From NCBI GenBank assembly GCA_018693855.1, contig JABHMO010000036.1, positions 1 to 48,448 on the forward strand: 48,448 bases of DNA. Direction: 5' to 3'. A program made the translations under genes and the position numbers. The notes below the pieces were generated by a model that saw nothing but the letters and a program-made list of their open reading frames with translations, had not been told where the DNA came from and did no database searches. The number at the start of each line of letters is the position of its first letter. Within the stretch, counting starts at the first letter, position 1. The stretch is from Candidatus Falkowiibacteriota bacterium (lineage in GTDB: Bacteria > Patescibacteriota > Patescibacteriia > UBA11705 > JABHMO01). Shown here piece after piece: positions 2,909 to 32,256 of the stretch.

Positions 2909-4669
2909 TTATTTAATTTGATCGCAATCAGAACAATTCTCTATGTAAGTGTCAGATCTGAAAATCTTGAAATCAGCAAGGAATTGATCAATGGAAGAAT
3001 TATCAGTAATATCCACAATCAAATCATAGAAATAGTAGCTCTGCGTGTTGCGACTTTTTAGCCAAGATTGTTTGATGAGCTCTGTTAGTTTATCGTAACC
3101 ATAATTTTGAGCGAATTTATTGTAGAAACAAAACCCTGTTTTATAGATATTTTGGGAGGTCTCAGTATTATCATACGCATGGATCGTTGTCTGTCCGTCA
3201 ATTGCCCAGCCGTTATCTAGGCATACAAATAATTTATCGTGATTCAATTGGTAAGTCACATACTCTGCAATACCTTCGACAAAAATACCATTTTCAGGCA
3301 AATATGAACTAGTTAATATATGAGTCATTTCATGAGCTAAAGAAAAAGGTTCTGGACATGGCGTGTTATCCAAATTAGTGACAAAATCATTCAACTTTGT
3401 TTGGTCAGAGTCTAACGTGGAATAAGCCCTGGTCGAACCTATTTGAGAAAATGAAAAATCAGCGCCACTAGCACTATCCCTATCTTCAGCTAATACACTT
3501 AACCCCACGTAAGTATGATCTGGATTTACTTTTATTAGATTTGCAACTCCACTGTAACATTTATCTAAAATTCGTGGATAAACATCGGTGTATGACGAAT
3601 ACTGATTGGGAAACTTGGCCCAATAACCTCCGGATAATTCAACTGATTTATACGGGTTACTACTTACTGGACAAATATAACAAGATTCTTCATTTCTAGT
3701 GTCTAGATCTAGTAAACAACTATCAACATAATCTTGGCAATCTAAATACAAAGACACAGATGCTTTTTGATCTTCGATTTCGTAATCATTAAAAACGAGA
3801 ATGAGCCCATTAATATTTCGTTCTCCATTTTTGAAAATTTCATTTCTTTTGGAAGGCCAATAATAATAATGTCCATTTGACTCTTTTTTAAAAACCTCAA
3901 AATGCAATGTATAAATTCCCCATTTATTATCATTGTCAATTTTTTTTATTTTTATTAAATACTCGTCATTTCCAACTCCGTCATTTTCCATCAATTGATA
4001 GGTCCCTGATTGGTAATGATTATTACCAATATTTTCAGGATGAATAGTGTCTAAATTTGACCAATTCACTGTCAGAACATCATAATCGTTGACTACATCA
4101 GTGTCGATCAATCCCTTTGAGATACAACTGTCGCCAAATTTATAGTAATTTGTTTGGCAAACAGTTTCTTTATTAGATTCGGTTGGAATTACTGAACCTA
4201 CTGGAGAAGGAATTGGAATCGATTGGCTGTTTTTACTTTTTGCAATACTTTCAAGGTTTGAATTTGTAATACCAAGCCCCAATTCCCTCATAACCTGGAA
4301 TGCATCAGCCGGTCTTCCTAGATAATGCATTTTTAGATCTGTTGGATTTATGTAATATGCTTCTCCATTAGCTTCAACTCGAAGTAAAATTTTACCGGAT
4401 AAATTTTTTGGTGCATAACCGTTAAATTTCGAATAATTTGATTCGTTGATCCCCAATCCCAATTCTCTCATAATTTGAAAAGCATCTGCTGGACGACCGA
4501 GAAAATAACGATTATTGTCTGCTGGGTTTACATACCAAGCCTCACCGTTTTCTTCTATTTGTAGAAGAATTTTGCCATTCAGTCTTTCGGCTATAGTTGC
4601 TGCATCAACTGAAACTACAAACGCTAATACTAAGAGGAATGAAAAACTTAAAAAAAACACTTTTTTCAT
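2909..4669 (-). CDS. secreted protein: two GRPADAF surface modules plus zincin-like metallopeptidase domain
   Basis: Signal peptide; two tandem modules GKILL..ENGEAWYVNP..GRPADAFQIMRELGLGI; C-terminal AHEMTHIL...EGIAEYV (HExxH plus downstream E). Confidence 0.8.
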   Translation of the reverse strand: MKKVFFLSFSFLLVLAFVVSVDAATIAERLNGKILLQIEENGEAWYVNPADNNRYFLGRPADAFQIMRELGLGINESNYSKFNGYAPKNLSGKILLRVEANGEAYYINPTDLKMHYLGRPADAFQVMRELGLGITNSNLESIAKSKNSQSIPIPSPVGSVIPTESNKETVCQTNYYKFGDSCISKGLIDTDVVNDYDVLTVNWSNLDTIHPENIGNNHYQSGTYQLMENDGVGNDEYLIKIKKIDNDNKWGIYTLHFEVFKKESNGHYYYWPSKRNEIFKNGERNINGLILVFNDYEIEDQKASVSLYLDCQDYVDSCLLDLDTRNEESCYICPVSSNPYKSVELSGGYWAKFPNQYSSYTDVYPRILDKCYSGVANLIKVNPDHTYVGLSVLAEDRDSASGADFSFSQIGSTRAYSTLDSDQTKLNDFVTNLDNTPCPEPFSLAHEMTHILTSSYLPENGIFVEGIAEYVTYQLNHDKLFVCLDNGWAIDGQTTIHAYDNTETSQNIYKTGFCFYNKFAQNYGYDKLTELIKQSWLKSRNTQSYYFYDLIVDITDNSSIDQFLADFKIFRSDTYIENCSDCDQIK

Positions 4670-7632: not shown

Positions 7633-8781
7633 TTATAATACTCTATATTGATATTTCACATCATTGGGAGACGATGCGTTACAATCAGCTCCTTCAAGGG
7701 CTTCTCCATTAATAGTACAAGTTGTAGACTGAGTTCCTAAATACATAAATTCACGACCATCAGCAGTCACAGTCTCATCCTTCTCCATTGTGTATGGAGC
7801 GCCATTCAATTCAAACACAGCGGTTCCATCAACACCTTCAACAGAGACAACCCCTACACTGAAACCATTCACAGTTGCAGTTCCTCCAAGCATAGACCAT
7901 CCATCTAACCACGTATTGTAAATCTCCGTATCCATGTCATTATCAAGAGTCCAATAACCATCATTTTTCCATCTATTTAATACATCTTTCAAATCCGTCT
8001 TCGCTATTCTTATATAAGTATCTTCACCATGAAAGAATACTTCATAAGCACTCTGCAAATCAATAGCATTTTGATCTATTGTATCGTCTGTCTCCCCCAA
8101 ATCCAAGGCAACCTGTCTCTGCGCGTCACTCAGGGTTACAGCTACATCTGAAATATTATATCTATAGTTACATTTACCATCTCCATTATCTCCAATGATT
8201 TCATTCTCAACCTTCATTGTAACTGTAATAGTGTCTTCATCGTACAAAGACTGTTTACTAACTGTAGAAGCAGAACAATCGTCAACAGAATTAATCATGC
8301 CATTCAAACTATTCCCTGCATTTTCCGGTCTTTTTGAATTTGCATGAATCTTGACCTTGTCCAAATTTCCATTTGTAATACCAAGCCCAAGCTCTCTCAT
8401 CACTCTGAATGCATCAGATGGTCTTCCTAAATAATTCATTTTTAGATCTAGCGGATTAACATAATAAGCTTCTCCGTTTGCTTCGACTCGAAGTAAAATC
8501 TTTCCTGCTAAATAACTTGGGGCATAACCATCAAACTTATCATAGTTCGCTTCATTAATACCAAGCCCAAGCTCTCTCATAATCTGAAAAGCGTCTGCTG
8601 GTCTACCAAGAAAATGACGATAGTTATCGGCTGGGTTCACATACCAAGCTTCTCCGTTTTCTTCTACCTGAAGAAGAATCTTCCCTTTCAATCTCTCAGA
8701 CATTGTTGCTGCAGCATCAGCTTGAGGGATGAAAGAGACTATCAAGAACATTGCTAAACATAGAAAAATAGCTTTTTTCAT
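7633..8781 (-). CDS. secreted protein with two GRPADAF surface modules
   Basis: Signal peptide and the same tandem modules as 2909-4669; unrelated C-terminal region. Confidence 0.8.
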   Translation of the reverse strand: MKKAIFLCLAMFLIVSFIPQADAAATMSERLKGKILLQVEENGEAWYVNPADNYRHFLGRPADAFQIMRELGLGINEANYDKFDGYAPSYLAGKILLRVEANGEAYYVNPLDLKMNYLGRPSDAFRVMRELGLGITNGNLDKVKIHANSKRPENAGNSLNGMINSVDDCSASTVSKQSLYDEDTITVTMKVENEIIGDNGDGKCNYRYNISDVAVTLSDAQRQVALDLGETDDTIDQNAIDLQSAYEVFFHGEDTYIRIAKTDLKDVLNRWKNDGYWTLDNDMDTEIYNTWLDGWSMLGGTATVNGFSVGVVSVEGVDGTAVFELNGAPYTMEKDETVTADGREFMYLGTQSTTCTINGEALEGADCNASSPNDVKYQYRVL

Positions 8782-8997
8782 AGTTGTTTTGTTAATTTAT
8801 TGTTAAGGCTATTATAGCACATAACCTTGTTGTCGAAAAAATACGTCAACGCAATCCCCTATTTTACTTTAATTTAAGACCAAATAAACAGACAGTCTTC
8901 ATGAATGGCTGTTTTTTGGTTCAAAAAGCTGGAATCTCGATACGATATAAGCAGAGAATAACTAATGACCTTTGACAAAAAGACAAGGAGCCAAACC

Positions 8998-9249
8998 ATG
9001 AAGATAGCAAGACCTATAAACATGGTGCCTAACGAACTAGCATCAATCACACCAAATCGACCTGGATATGGAATGTTCAACGCATGGGACACTCAAGATT
9101 GCGCAGGGTCTTTTGCTCAACTTGACGGAGATGGAATAGAAGAGGAAGAAGAAGAAATTTTCAATCCAGACGAAGGAATCTTTCTCCCCTTTCCTAGAGG
9201 ATTAGGAACAAAACATCGATTCCCATTCTTCGGTAGTTCAAATTTATAA
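8998..9249 (+). CDS. small paralogous protein, copy 1 of 3
   Basis: ORF with AAGGAG upstream of ATG 8998; MKIARPINMVPNELASITP..YGMF..WDTQDC...FLPFPRGL..KHRFPFFG. Confidence 0.8.
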   Translation: MKIARPINMVPNELASITPNRPGYGMFNAWDTQDCAGSFAQLDGDGIEEEEEEIFNPDEGIFLPFPRGLGTKHRFPFFGSSNL

Positions 9250-9270
9250 AAACACTAAAAGGAATAATTC

Positions 9271-9537
9271 ATGAAACTCGCCAAACCAAAAGAGATGGTT
9301 CCAAAGAGACTAGCAAAAATCATACCACCATGTGAAAGATATGGAATGTTTAATAATTGGGATAGTCAAAACTGGGAAGGAGATTTTGAGTCAATTGATG
9401 GAACCAGCGAAGAAAACAAAGCCTTAAGCGATAAAAAAGAAAGACCACTCTCTTCATTCAGGCCTTTCCCAAAAGGACTAAAAACCGAACACAGATTCTC
9501 GTTCTTCGGCAGAACACATCTACCGGATAAGGAGTAA
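9271..9537 (+). CDS. small paralogous protein, copy 2 of 3
   Basis: AAAGGA upstream; MKLAKPKEMVPKRLAKIIP..YGMF..WDSQNW...FRPFPKGL..EHRFSFFGR. Confidence 0.8.
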   Translation: MKLAKPKEMVPKRLAKIIPPCERYGMFNNWDSQNWEGDFESIDGTSEENKALSDKKERPLSSFRPFPKGLKTEHRFSFFGRTHLPDKE

Positions 9538-9542
9538 ACAAG

Positions 9543-9812
9543 ATGAAGCTGACTAAACCAAATCATCTAGTACCAGACAGATTAGCATCAATCATACCAA
9601 GGCAATCGGCATATGGGATGTTTAGTGAATGGGACACCCAGGATTGCAAGGGTAAATTCGCAAAACTCGACGAGCAAGAAACTGACCAAAATGTCACAAA
9701 ACAACGTAACAAACCAAAAGAAAAACCTTTCTTGCCTTTCCCAAAAGGACTTCTAATAAAACACCGTTTCAGTTTTTTCGGCCGACCAAACCTATCCAAA
9801 GGAAAAGATTGA
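9543..9812 (+). CDS. small paralogous protein, copy 3 of 3
   Basis: AAGGAG upstream; MKLTKPNHLVPDRLASIIP..YGMF..WDTQDC...FLPFPKGL..KHRFSFFGR. Confidence 0.8.
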   Translation: MKLTKPNHLVPDRLASIIPRQSAYGMFSEWDTQDCKGKFAKLDEQETDQNVTKQRNKPKEKPFLPFPKGLLIKHRFSFFGRPNLSKGKD

Positions 9813-12401: not shown

Positions 12402-12430
12402 TTACACAAAATAGTAATCAAAATTGTCCT

Positions 12431-12459
12431 TGACAAGCAAATTCAATAGGTGTATATTC
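12431..12459 (+). promoter_or_regulatory. sigma70-type promoter for the 76-aa ORF
   Basis: TTGACA - 17 nt - TATATT. Confidence 0.7.
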
Positions 12460-12496
12460 CTGACAGGTCAATTTTTCGCCTGAAAGGAGTGCGGAA

Positions 12497-12727
12497 ATGA
12501 TCGTTCGTGCGAAGAGACAAAAAAGAATAAGGGGTGGTAAGCACTACTACGAATTCTTGGGGATCTTCGTCTCATGCGTTGCAGTGCTCTATGTAGCCAA
12601 GGTAGGAATTCTCCTGTCTCTGCTACTAGGTGGCTGCTTTGCAATTCTGCTCTTTATCTTCATCTATCCAATCCCCATCAAAATACCAGAGGAGAACGAT
12701 GAGGAGGATGAGGACGGCACACAATAA
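12497..12727 (+). CDS. small membrane protein
   Basis: 76-aa ORF with AAAGGAG SD, two hydrophobic segments, acidic tail. Confidence 0.7.
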   Translation: MIVRAKRQKRIRGGKHYYEFLGIFVSCVAVLYVAKVGILLSLLLGGCFAILLFIFIYPIPIKIPEENDEEDEDGTQ

Positions 12728-12740
12728 AAAATGTCCATTT

Positions 12741-12772
12741 AGCGGCTTCGCATTGCGAAGCCGCTTCTCTTT
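12741..12772 (+). terminator. intrinsic terminator
   Basis: AGCGGCTTCGCATTGCGAAGCCGCT hairpin followed by T-rich tract. Confidence 0.8.
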
Positions 12773-19829: not shown

Positions 19830-20053
19830 AGAATAAGGAGGCTATACGGGGCCAGCCCGCAATGTCTACGCATAGCGTTGCTGGCGGGCTAAACGAGGCC
19901 TTTAATAAATTATATTAATAAAAAAGAGAGCCTAAAATAGACCCCCTCCCTTAAAATTGTAAGTTACTTAGTTTATAGTGAATATGAAGTTTATACAGGA
20001 TATACAGGGTATAAAGGTTATTAAGTTACATATTATAGTAATAACTTTGCTCA

Positions 20054-20125
20054 CCCTGCCCGCAGTGCTACAGCGTTGCCCGCCTGCTACGATATAGCAT
20101 TTCGGGCAGGCAGGCGGGCTTAATT
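20054..20125. repeat. GC-rich palindromic interspersed repeat, long form
   Basis: CCCTGCCCGCAGTGCTACAGCGTTGCCCGCCTGCTACGATATAGCATTTCGGGCAGGCAGGCGGGC. Confidence 0.85.
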
Positions 20126-20137
20126 TCAACTCAATAT

Positions 20138-20172
20138 CCCTGCCCGCAGTGCTACAGCGTTGCAGGCGGGCT
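20138..20172. repeat. GC-rich palindromic interspersed repeat, short form
   Basis: CCTGCCCGCAGTGCTACAGCGTTGCAGGCGGGC. Confidence 0.85.
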
Positions 20173-21427: not shown

Positions 21428-21514
21428 ATTTTTTCACGTAACACATATCACGTAGCACGTAACATATAGCACGTAGCATAACAATTATATAATAATTAAA
21501 TAATGATAGAACAA

Positions 21515-21664
21515 ACAAGGGGTCTGGGGGGCGACTGTTTAAGCGTCGTTGATCAACACGCTAAAAGTAGCTAAATAGAACATAGTGAGTTTTAGCCCCC
21601 CAGCGGTTTTGGTTACTTTTGGCGGCAAAAGTAACTCGAACGAGAGTTCGAAGGTCATTACCCA
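21515..21664. repeat. dispersed structured element, copy A
   Basis: ~150 bp similar to 26187-26340; nested inverted repeats. Confidence 0.85.
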
Positions 21665-23178: not shown

Positions 23179-23247
23179 AGCCCGCCTGCCTGCCCGAAAT
23201 GCTATATCGTAGCAGGCGGGCAACGCTGTAGCACTGCGGGCAGGGTA
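23179..23247. repeat. GC-rich palindromic interspersed repeat, long form, inverted
   Basis: Reverse complement of 20054-20125 unit. Confidence 0.85.
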
Positions 23248-23335: not shown

Positions 23336-24676
23336 ATGCATATCAATATACGAAGAGCTATTGCTCTCTTTTTCCTAATCATTTTTGTCGTCGGTACACC
23401 AATTTTAATTTTTTATGCTTCAGGTTATCGATATAATGTAAAAAAAGGAAAGGTTGAAAAATCTGGAGGTCTTATCATTGATTCAGAACCGTCTCGTGCT
23501 GGGATCTTTTTGAATGAAAAATTCATAAATGACTCAACACCTGCTAGGTTAAAAAACCTTGTTCAAGATAGATACAGTGTCAGATTAGAAAAAGAAGGTT
23601 ATTACAGTTGGAATAAAAATCTTGAGATCAGAAGTCAGGAAACAACTTTCGCTGAAGATGTAATTCTTTTCAAAAACACAGAACCTGAAAAAGTTATTGA
23701 CTCAGAAATTCAGTTCATCTCGTTTTCACCAGATCATTCATATGCCGTTTTCACAACTTCCGACTTTGAACAAGACTATCTTTATTTAATGAATTTGAAT
23801 AATCAAAAATACAATCTAATTTACAACAATAACAAAAAGTTTACTGAACCTTCTGTCTATTGGACTGATGATGCTTCAGAAATACTTTTCGTATCAAATG
23901 GTGACAGAATCATTATTCCAACTCAATTCCCAAAGAACTCTTTTTCATTAACAAAGTTCTTCAACTACCCAGATGCTGTAAACTATAAATGGGACGCAAA
24001 CAGCAACAATGCTCTTTTTGCTCAAACTGAAAATGCAGTATTTAAGATAAACAGTTCTACAAAAAAAGCTGAAGATATTTTCTTGCTAAATCCGTCTGAA
24101 AAATTAATTGACTTTTATATCAATAAAAACGACATCTATTACATTTTCGGAATTGAGAATAAAACCTTTTTGGGAAAAGCTGATTTAGCTGACAATAAAT
24201 TACAAAAGACTCTTGAATTAAAAAATGATAGTTACAAATTTGATAGATTCTACGGAGACAAAATAGCGATCTTTGATCATAAACTGCCAACTCTATACTT
24301 AATTAATCAAGAGATTGATAATATCTATTTTCAAAAAGCTGATGTCCAAAATCTAGATTTCCACAAACAAAAAAATCTGCTACTTATGCAGACTCACCAA
24401 GATTTATCTTCTTTAGATTTAAATGAAGCAGTTGCTAATGAAAGAAACATCACTCGATACAGTTCAAATCTGACAGATGCAAAGTGGCACAAGTCAACCA
24501 ACTACGCGATTGATCTACAAAATCAGACTATTAACATAATCGAATTAGATGATAGGGACTCACACTTCATCCTCTCTCTTCCCTATCAAAACATTACAAA
24601 CTTCTCAATCGACAAAGATTCTGAAACAATATACTTCATTCAGAATGAACTACTTTATAGTTTAGAGATTAAATAA
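23336..24676 (+). CDS. PEGA domain-containing membrane-anchored protein
   Basis: N-terminal TM; GGLIIDSEPSRAGIFLNEKFINDSTPARLKNLVQDRYSVRLEKEGY PEGA-like segment. Confidence 0.75.
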   Translation: MHINIRRAIALFFLIIFVVGTPILIFYASGYRYNVKKGKVEKSGGLIIDSEPSRAGIFLNEKFINDSTPARLKNLVQDRYSVRLEKEGYYSWNKNLEIRSQETTFAEDVILFKNTEPEKVIDSEIQFISFSPDHSYAVFTTSDFEQDYLYLMNLNNQKYNLIYNNNKKFTEPSVYWTDDASEILFVSNGDRIIIPTQFPKNSFSLTKFFNYPDAVNYKWDANSNNALFAQTENAVFKINSSTKKAEDIFLLNPSEKLIDFYINKNDIYYIFGIENKTFLGKADLADNKLQKTLELKNDSYKFDRFYGDKIAIFDHKLPTLYLINQEIDNIYFQKADVQNLDFHKQKNLLLMQTHQDLSSLDLNEAVANERNITRYSSNLTDAKWHKSTNYAIDLQNQTINIIELDDRDSHFILSLPYQNITNFSIDKDSETIYFIQNELLYSLEIK

Positions 24677-24689
24677 AAATTTTTAAAAA

Positions 24690-24721
24690 TAAGAGCCCCA
24701 GATCGATGTCGATCCGGGGCT
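24690..24721 (-). terminator. intrinsic terminator (possibly bidirectional)
   Basis: AGCCCCAGATCGATGTCGATCCGGGGCT; minus-strand T-rich tract follows. Confidence 0.75.
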
Positions 24722-24789
24722 GGTTTTGTGTGCACGCCTTTTTCATTTGAGTCGGAGGACCGGGCGCCGTCGGTCAGCTGTTGCCATGG

Positions 24790-24960
24790 CTATTCGCTGG
24801 TCTGCATACCAGCTAGGACATGAGTCCAACCATTCTCCTTAAAGTATTGTCCCAGAATTTTTCGAGAAGGTTTCTGGTACCCTGCGGTTTCCTCAAAAGT
24901 GCAGCTCTCGAGGTCCTTTGGCATACGCCGCCCCTTTCGATAAAGAGACGTCTCTGACAT
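24790..24960 (-). CDS. possible 56-aa protein embedded in the candidate ncRNA
   Basis: ORF MSETSLYRKGRRMPKDLESCTFEETAGYQKPSRKILGQYFKENGWTHVLAGMQTSE; no convincing SD. Confidence 0.25.
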   Translation of the reverse strand: MSETSLYRKGRRMPKDLESCTFEETAGYQKPSRKILGQYFKENGWTHVLAGMQTSE

Positions 24961-25121
24961 TTTACATCATTCGAGATCCCAGTAGATCTCCCAAGGCCGC
25001 TAGCCTTGATCAGCGTACCAATGCTGCTGAATAATGCTATCCCAATTAGCGGGATGTTACAGATCAGGGAATCTTTAAGAAGCTGTAAGCCGGCCTCTCC
25101 CCTCTCCGTACTGGAATATAG

Positions 25122-25150
25122 CATATAGCACACATTCAATGTTCTGTCAA
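25122..25150 (-). promoter_or_regulatory. sigma70-type promoter
   Basis: Minus strand TTGACA - 17 nt - TATATG. Confidence 0.6.
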
Positions 25151-25265
25151 GTCTTTTTCTTCCTCTATTGTTATTTAGTCTAAATTTAGATAATTATTGC
25201 GAATAAAAAATATCACTTGACTGAAACGTAAAGTGATATTTTTTATTATTTAAGTTATGTTTGCT

Positions 25266-26129
25266 TTACTTTTTGTCATTAAGAGCCCAATAGACTTGAG
25301 TCATGAAACCTTGGAAAAAGGTTGAAAGATAGGCCTTCACACATAGAAGAAGGAATAAAAGACCTATAAATGCAAAGAATCCAAGTATAACGATGAAAAT
25401 GATGAAACCTCCATATAAGAACGATAAAGTAGCAATTGTCACAACAATTGCAGATCCGATGAAGAAAATTACAACAAGTATCGCCATGATAGCTAGAATT
25501 AAAACAATTTCAATCAATTTAGCCAAAATTACGTTTTTAGGATTCTTTCTCAATAACTGCCAAGCTGCTACGATTGCCTGCCAAGTAGATTTATTTTCAA
25601 AAACGATGTAACAGTACGCATAGTGCTTACATAGATATAGAATGACATTATAGATAAGCAATAGTAACATCGCAACAATAAATAGAACAGCCATTACCGC
25701 TGATTGAGTATACATGAAGTACAGACTAATTATTACTGCCAACACAATGTTAACTATGCCTAGATAAATTTCTAACAGTAATGTTCTAGGAATTTTTCTG
25801 AAACCAAACTTGATCAGTTCCCAAACTTTATAATCTTCATTCTGCTTAATCTTCTTCAACCCTGACAGAATACTTGCCTTAGCAATGAGTGAGATCAAAT
25901 AAACAACAACGAAAAACAAAAGCCCTAAAACAATCATTTTATCAAATCGAAAAGATGAAAATCCATCTTTGAAAAAACTAACAATGTTCAAATCAGCTGA
26001 GTCGTCTTGCCAAAACTGAAAACTAATTGTTGTTGTAGTAATAAAAAACCCAATGATCCATATTCGTTTATAGATCCAAGCCCAACTCAACGACTGTTTA
26101 ATAAAACTAGAAAATGGTAATGCTTTCAT
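25266..26129 (-). CDS. integral membrane protein, unknown
   Basis: 287-aa ORF with ~6 hydrophobic segments. Confidence 0.75.
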   Translation of the reverse strand: MKALPFSSFIKQSLSWAWIYKRIWIIGFFITTTTISFQFWQDDSADLNIVSFFKDGFSSFRFDKMIVLGLLFFVVVYLISLIAKASILSGLKKIKQNEDYKVWELIKFGFRKIPRTLLLEIYLGIVNIVLAVIISLYFMYTQSAVMAVLFIVAMLLLLIYNVILYLCKHYAYCYIVFENKSTWQAIVAAWQLLRKNPKNVILAKLIEIVLILAIMAILVVIFFIGSAIVVTIATLSFLYGGFIIFIVILGFFAFIGLLFLLLCVKAYLSTFFQGFMTQVYWALNDKK

Positions 26130-26186
26130 AAAATGTTTTATATTTATTTTTTTATTATAAAGTAATTGTAAATATTATTTAATACA

Positions 26187-26340
26187 CCAAGGGGTCTGGG
26201 GGGCGACTGTTTAAGCGTCAACAATCAACACCACGAAAAACGCTAGATAGTACATAGTGAGTTTTAGCCCCCCAGCAGTTTTTGGTTACTTTTTGCTGCC
26301 AAAAAGTAACTCGACCGAGAGGGCGAAATCTATTCCCCAC
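26187..26340. repeat. dispersed structured element, copy B
   Basis: ~150 bp similar to 21515-21664. Confidence 0.85.
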
Positions 26341-32131: not shown

Positions 32132-32196
32132 AAGACAAAGAAGGCTATAGGAGGCGAATGAGGCCAACTCTATATCCTCAATTTTAACTTAATATC

Positions 32197-32229
32197 CCTG
32201 CCCGCAGTGCTACAGCGTTGCAGGCGGGC
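32197..32229. repeat. GC-rich palindromic interspersed repeat, short form
   Basis: CCTGCCCGCAGTGCTACAGCGTTGCAGGCGGGC with same AT flanks as the 20138 copy. Confidence 0.85.
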
Positions 32230-32256
32230 TTAATTTCAACTCAATATTCTGACTCC

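Follow-up and report, generated by a model that had tools for sequence, protein, structure and literature searches.

A candidate structured RNA cassette between two conserved convergent genes of a Candidatus Falkowiibacteriota bacterium

Between two convergent genes that are conserved in its relatives, a Candidatus Falkowiibacteriota genome carries a cassette that, judging from modelling of its fold and frames, most likely yields a folded RNA of about 420 bases and not a protein. We read it as an orphan gene, specific to its lineage, for a structured RNA that acts in trans, a reading to which we give a probability of just under 0.6; as it stands, the cassette is one unreplicated sequence and a candidate RNA gene. 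We propose the following scheme. A cassette of about 500 bp, composed of a promoter, an RNA of about 420 nt and a terminator, was inserted between the two genes, and its own sigma70 promoter would drive the transcription of a noncoding RNA that stands alone and is highly structured. This molecule would be closed by a long-range helix, inside which there would be several hairpins and a four-way junction resembling a cloverleaf, and the folded RNA would then most likely act in trans, as a scaffold or as a ligand- or protein-binding RNA. A role in trans is preferred to that of a cis-regulator because no gene is found downstream on the same strand before the terminator. CPR bacteria have minimal genomes; if our reading is true, finding an orphan, accessory gene for a structured RNA in a genome of 1 Mb would show these cells to acquire RNA genes in cassette form. 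In the open-access literature, we found no paper linking CPR bacteria with novel structured RNAs.

Layout and predicted fold of the unit

The initial annotation had described, on the minus strand, TTGACA-17-TATATG followed by some 420 GC-rich nt and a terminator hairpin, and all these elements are present at 25150-24694 of the window, i.e., the whole 48,448-nt stretch of DNA that was analysed (Table 1). The predicted promoter is made of TTGACA (25150-25145), a 17-nt spacer that includes the TG of an extended -10, and TATATG (25127-25122). The pattern TTGACA-N17-TATA is found three times in the window (0.27 expected), and a looser promoter pattern shows no excess; in this genome, TTGACA-17-TATAAT also precedes a tRNA gene, at a distance of 19 nt. 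At the other end, the predicted intrinsic terminator has G-C pairs at 8 of its 12 positions and U's after the stem. The stretch of about 420 nt is bounded, at the level of motifs, by a consensus promoter and a strong terminator of its own, and since the upstream DUF7544 gene possesses its own terminator, the cassette appears as a separate unit.

Table 1. Features of the cassette and its surroundings (positions in the window)
Feature	Position	Strand	Details
PEGA-domain protein, flanking gene	23336-24676	+	446 aa; Pfam PF08308
DUF7544 membrane protein, flanking gene	25266-26129	-	287 aa; Pfam PF24400
Terminator of upstream DUF7544 gene	25202-25247		20-nt arms
Predicted sigma70-type promoter	25122-25150	-	sequence motif
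Predicted transcript, candidate structured RNA	24690-25115	-	about 425 nt; GC 0.51; fold z -4.68; no convincing coding signal; no Rfam/Pfam/PHROG match
Intrinsic terminator	24694-24721	-	12-bp stem then CTTATTTTTA; pair probability 0.99
56-aa frame	24790-24960	-	44 aa if started at the inner ATG (24924)
Long-range closing helix, 5' strand	25089-25111	-	pairs with 24732-24765; MEA structure of a single sequence; pair probabilities about 0.65-0.85
Long-range closing helix, 3' strand	24732-24765	-	pairs with 25089-25111; MEA structure
Inner helix	25073-25082/24835-24844	-	pair probability 0.88
Compact four-way junction, cloverleaf-like	24964-25037	-	pair probabilities 0.92-0.99
Four-way junction, 9-bp stem	25029-25037/24964-24972	-	predicted
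Four-way junction, first arm	25023-25026/25011-25014	-	loop AUUGGUAC
Four-way junction, second arm	25002-25009/24991-24998	-	predicted
Four-way junction, third arm	24984-24990/24973-24979	-	predicted
Hairpin AUCCCG/UGGGAU	25039-25055	-	pair probability 0.90
Hairpin GUCUCUUU/AAAGGGGC	24930-24949	-	pair probability 0.96
Hairpin CCUCGAGAG/CUUUUGAGG	24891-24913	-	pair probability 1.00
Hairpin GCUGGU/ACCAGC	24796-24813	-	pair probability 0.99

The cassette has a GC content of 0.51, the window one of 0.35, and the GC-richest 400-nt block of the whole 48 kb starts at 24701. The known stable RNAs encoded by this genome span a range that includes the value of the cassette (tmRNA 0.38, RNase P 0.46, tRNAs 0.57-0.65). 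The eight inverted repeats that had been reported were all recovered in place; one of them, AGAGACGTCTCT, has no loop and so is unable to fold as drawn, and another, GACCG/CGGTC, is in competition with the closing helix. The cassette has more perfect hairpins than its dinucleotide shuffles, with 8 observed versus 3.75 for stems of at least 5 bp (P = 0.022), and 5 versus 1.14 for stems of at least 6 bp (P = 0.004).

The predicted transcribed strand also folds above its shuffled background. Its minimum of -157.9 kcal/mol corresponds to a z of -4.68 against dinucleotide shuffles, none of 100 being as low; z amounts to -3.06 when the terminator is left out and to -2.05 for the opposite, plus strand. 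Among 110 random 426-nt segments of the same 48-kb sequence (mean z -0.72, sd 1.45), two fall below -4, one overlapping the cassette and the other being a repeat-rich intergenic region at 19884. A junction as compact as that of 25037-24964 appears in 3 of 600 shuffles (0.5%). The preference for the minus strand, the excess of hairpins and this four-way junction all argue for the RNA reading.

Coding potential and a coding cassette in the same window

An alternative, which we judge improbable, is a small protein gene with foreign codon usage, either a 44-aa frame starting at ATG 24924, with AAAGGGG before it, or a 103/108-aa frame. The initial annotation had already raised a protein of 56 or 108 aa as the rival to an RNA; neither frame displays a convincing coding signal and neither has homologues. 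When codon bias, 3-base periodicity and homologues are considered together, there are weak hints for the 103-codon frame only: an ATG frame of at least 103 codons is found in just 1.2% of shuffles, and its 3-base periodicity is weak (P 0.025). Against this, its GC by codon position (0.44/0.48/0.52) places GC1 under GC2, whereas GC1 exceeds GC2 in the sampled genes, and its amino-acid log-odds of -0.144 lie three sd under real genes (0.07 +/- 0.07) and resemble wrong frames (about -0.20 +/- 0.10). Its ATG falls within the -10 box, so that the predicted transcript would exclude that start. The 103/108-aa frame was rejected on these composition measures, which are independent of host codon usage.

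On the sequence measures, the 56-aa frame and its inner 44-aa version are probably not coding. Both are devoid of 3-base periodicity (P 0.49 and 0.57), their host codon score resembles that of wrong frames, and they span a third of the transcript; the 44-aa frame is short, hence the test is weak for it. Moreover, the Shine-Dalgarno-like AAAGGGG that precedes this frame would be buried, as part of the 3' arm of the predicted hairpin 24930-24949. Searches in Pfam and PHROGs gave no match for any frame of the cassette, tblastn of these frames against phages and plasmids gave nothing, and in the viral contigs neither the 56-aa frame nor the flanking gene had a relative, and a 19-mer had no exact copy.

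A point in favor of a small protein is found elsewhere in the window, in the form of a comparable GC-rich standalone cassette at 12430-12770 (plus strand), which we used as a control. It includes the consensus promoter TTGACA-17-TATATT, the Shine-Dalgarno sequence AAAGGAG, a 76-aa frame (12497-12727) and a terminator (12741-12765). Its product, hydrophobic in the middle and acidic in the tail, is an orphan small membrane protein, by its sequence, and has no Pfam family. By its GC per codon position (0.55/0.31/0.53), periodicity (P 0.002) and amino-acid log-odds (0.114), this frame is clearly coding. Yet the cassette is GC-rich (0.42), and its RNA fold reaches a z of -5.85. Folding energy alone is thus not diagnostic, and GC-rich, strongly folding islands in this genome can be small foreign-looking genes, in practice, a caution to any screen that regards GC and folding energy as proving a noncoding RNA. 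On the other hand, the measures that recognise the 76-aa gene recognise none in 24690-25150, which we consider the best argument available here against a coding function.

The initial proposal that a GC-rich island marks a structured RNA must then be qualified: the GC and folding excess of the cassette are real, but the argument is weaker in a genome where a coding cassette behaves alike. A standalone structured-RNA unit is still the best reading, through its promoter and terminator, its fold, the lack of Rfam match and the absence of a convincing coding signal. What speaks against it is the z of the coding cassette, an ATG frame of 103 codons that exceeds those of 99% of shuffles, and the lack of a homologue in any collection searched, hence of covariation and of any indication that the structure is under selection.

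Genomic setting and search for relatives

The position of the unit adds an observation that was not in the initial annotation. The convergent PEGA-DUF7544 gene pair is kept in nine relatives, and in eight of them (G001, G003, G004, G006, G007, G009, G010 and L074) nothing stands between the two genes but a short, terminator-bearing spacer; L074, a Kuenenbacteria MAG, is the closest relative found (48% identity in the PEGA protein). The relatives of the flanking protein suggest that our genome is a Patescibacteria (CPR) MAG close to Kuenenbacteria/Falkowbacteria. In our genome, the terminator at 25202-25247 is probably the one that the pair originally shared, and the cassette is placed between this terminator and the PEGA stop codon. 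By this comparison, the cassette is an insertion of about 500 bp between two conserved convergent genes. The spacer-only arrangement of the relatives implies that the unit is accessory, and it is unique to this genome among those searched. A 9-nt direct repeat, TAAGAGCCC, flanks the insert, as expected by chance. The ninth relative (G005) has an unrelated insert of about 400 bp at the same spot, which indicates that this spot tolerates inserts. This other insert (L053, G005:C23:21519-21921) contains long palindromes, GTCATTGCGAGAGGCCCTGC...CTCGCAATGAC.

These observations bear on the main rival, which we hold to be rather unlikely, i.e., a non-functional insert of higher-GC foreign or decayed mobile DNA, with a fortuitous promoter and terminator, that is drifting. 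The cassette is missing from all nine relatives that have the gene pair, one of which received something different there, and it has neither relatives nor a conserved protein, as such a drifting insert would. The strand-specific folding excess and the neat promoter-RNA-terminator layout fit it poorly, as does the outcome of a search for mobile or repeat elements, in which the cassette proved to be single copy in the genome and to have no long terminal repeats.

Homologues of the RNA were sought by blastn in the order (11 genomes), the class (389), the phylum (389), phages and plasmids, and none was found. The matches were of 14-50 nt only, with a best E of 2e-4 per genome (chance level over hundreds of genomes), and those inspected were all within long open frames. 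One of them (L034), which looked intergenic at first sight, is inside an open frame of 1007 codons. Single-sequence covariance models were also built for two domains, the four-way junction (R1) and the 3' domain (R2). R1 found itself alone in 389 class and 370 phylum genomes, and R2 gave three weak matches in 351 class genomes; the best one (23 bits, several pairs broken) was discarded, being inside a 427-aa coding gene. As no homologue was found, covariation, the decisive test, has no basis for this cassette. The sets searched include no other species of its genus, so that its immediate lineage may still contain a homologue. That the unit would represent a new class of large structured RNA (about 420 nt), free-standing and built around a core that resembles a cloverleaf, is a tentative proposal that we hold doubtful; such a class would be restricted to few CPR bacteria of one narrow lineage, which would have acquired promoter, RNA and terminator together as a cassette.

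The window contains several repeated elements besides. A REP-like palindromic 35-nt repeat, CCCTGCCCGCAGTGCTACAGCGTTGCAGGCGGGCT, is dispersed in intergenic regions in both orientations (20036-20172, 23188-23245 and 32196-32230), and its regions include 104-nt inverted copies 3 kb apart. A 114-nt intergenic direct repeat (21497-21610 and 26169-26282) is 80% identical over its two copies, which are 4.7 kb apart. On the plus strand, 8965-9812 holds three tandem diverged ORFs (94, 88 and 89 aa) that repeat at intervals of 276 and 272 nt; they have common ends such as PFPKGL..HRFSFFGR, the motif YGMF..WDTQD and no Pfam family. Finally, the proteins encoded at 2909-4669 and 7633-8781 (minus strand) resemble each other at the N-terminus (...GKILLQVEENGEAWYVNPADN..., 79% identity over 300 nt), apparently through a local duplication.

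Comparison with known RNAs

A divergent member of a known family (RNase P, tmRNA, SRP, 6S, riboswitch or group I/II intron) would share with the cassette its size and its long-range closing helix, and a stretch near the 5' end, CCGGCUUA, looks like RNase P CR-V. We nevertheless regard such a membership as very improbable. In the window, no Rfam family reaches its gathering threshold; a search at E <= 5 yields eukaryotic chance matches only, so no known RNA is recognised in the cassette. Features of RNase P, tmRNA and SRP had not been seen at first reading, and the models agree: the cassette has no match to the RNase P models RF00010 and RF00011 or to the SRP models, and it is not a tmRNA by RF00023, tag peptide or tRNA-like ends. 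The RNase P RNA of the genome (84 bits, E 1.6e-26) and its tmRNA (132 bits, E 8.8e-54) are located away from the cassette, on contigs C39 and C10, respectively. As a normal RNase P is present in the genome, we gave up the idea of a permuted one, which CCGGCUUA had suggested. The absence of any match to the small bacterial SRP model RF00169 in the window's genome (G000, assembly 93% complete), which could be counted in favor of a divergent RNA, is explained either by sequence missing from the assembly or by an SRP RNA that has diverged.

The free-standing structured RNA that we prefer recalls several known systems. It resembles RNase P RNA (RF00010) in size, GC and long-range closing helix, and differs from it in being unmatched by the model in a genome with its own copy on C39. 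The predicted four-way junction recalls a tRNA by its linkers of 2, 1, 0 and 0 nt, by a first arm CAGC-AUUGGUAC-GCUG whose 8-nt loop bears GG, and by a second arm readable as 5 bp with the 7-nt loop CUAGCGG. However, it has no T-loop sequence and no CCA, its stem is of 9 bp, and the cassette gives no ARAGORN call and no match to the tRNA model RF00005; this resemblance of the modelled junction is an observation, not a family membership.

As a long GC-rich intergenic region with a complex predicted structure in an AT-rich genome, the cassette is similar to the candidates of genome-by-genome pipelines (PMC11109978, PMC6429828), which are ranked with homologues and covariation, whereas ours is a single sequence. 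One of these pipelines orders intergenic regions by length and GC, and most such regions turned out to be known ORFs (2948 of 4714; PMC11109978). Finally, GOLLD, ROOL and OLE (PMC12286853) are conserved families, whereas the cassette has no Rfam match; with them it would share a large size, multiple helices, a standalone nature and possibly a role as a scaffold.
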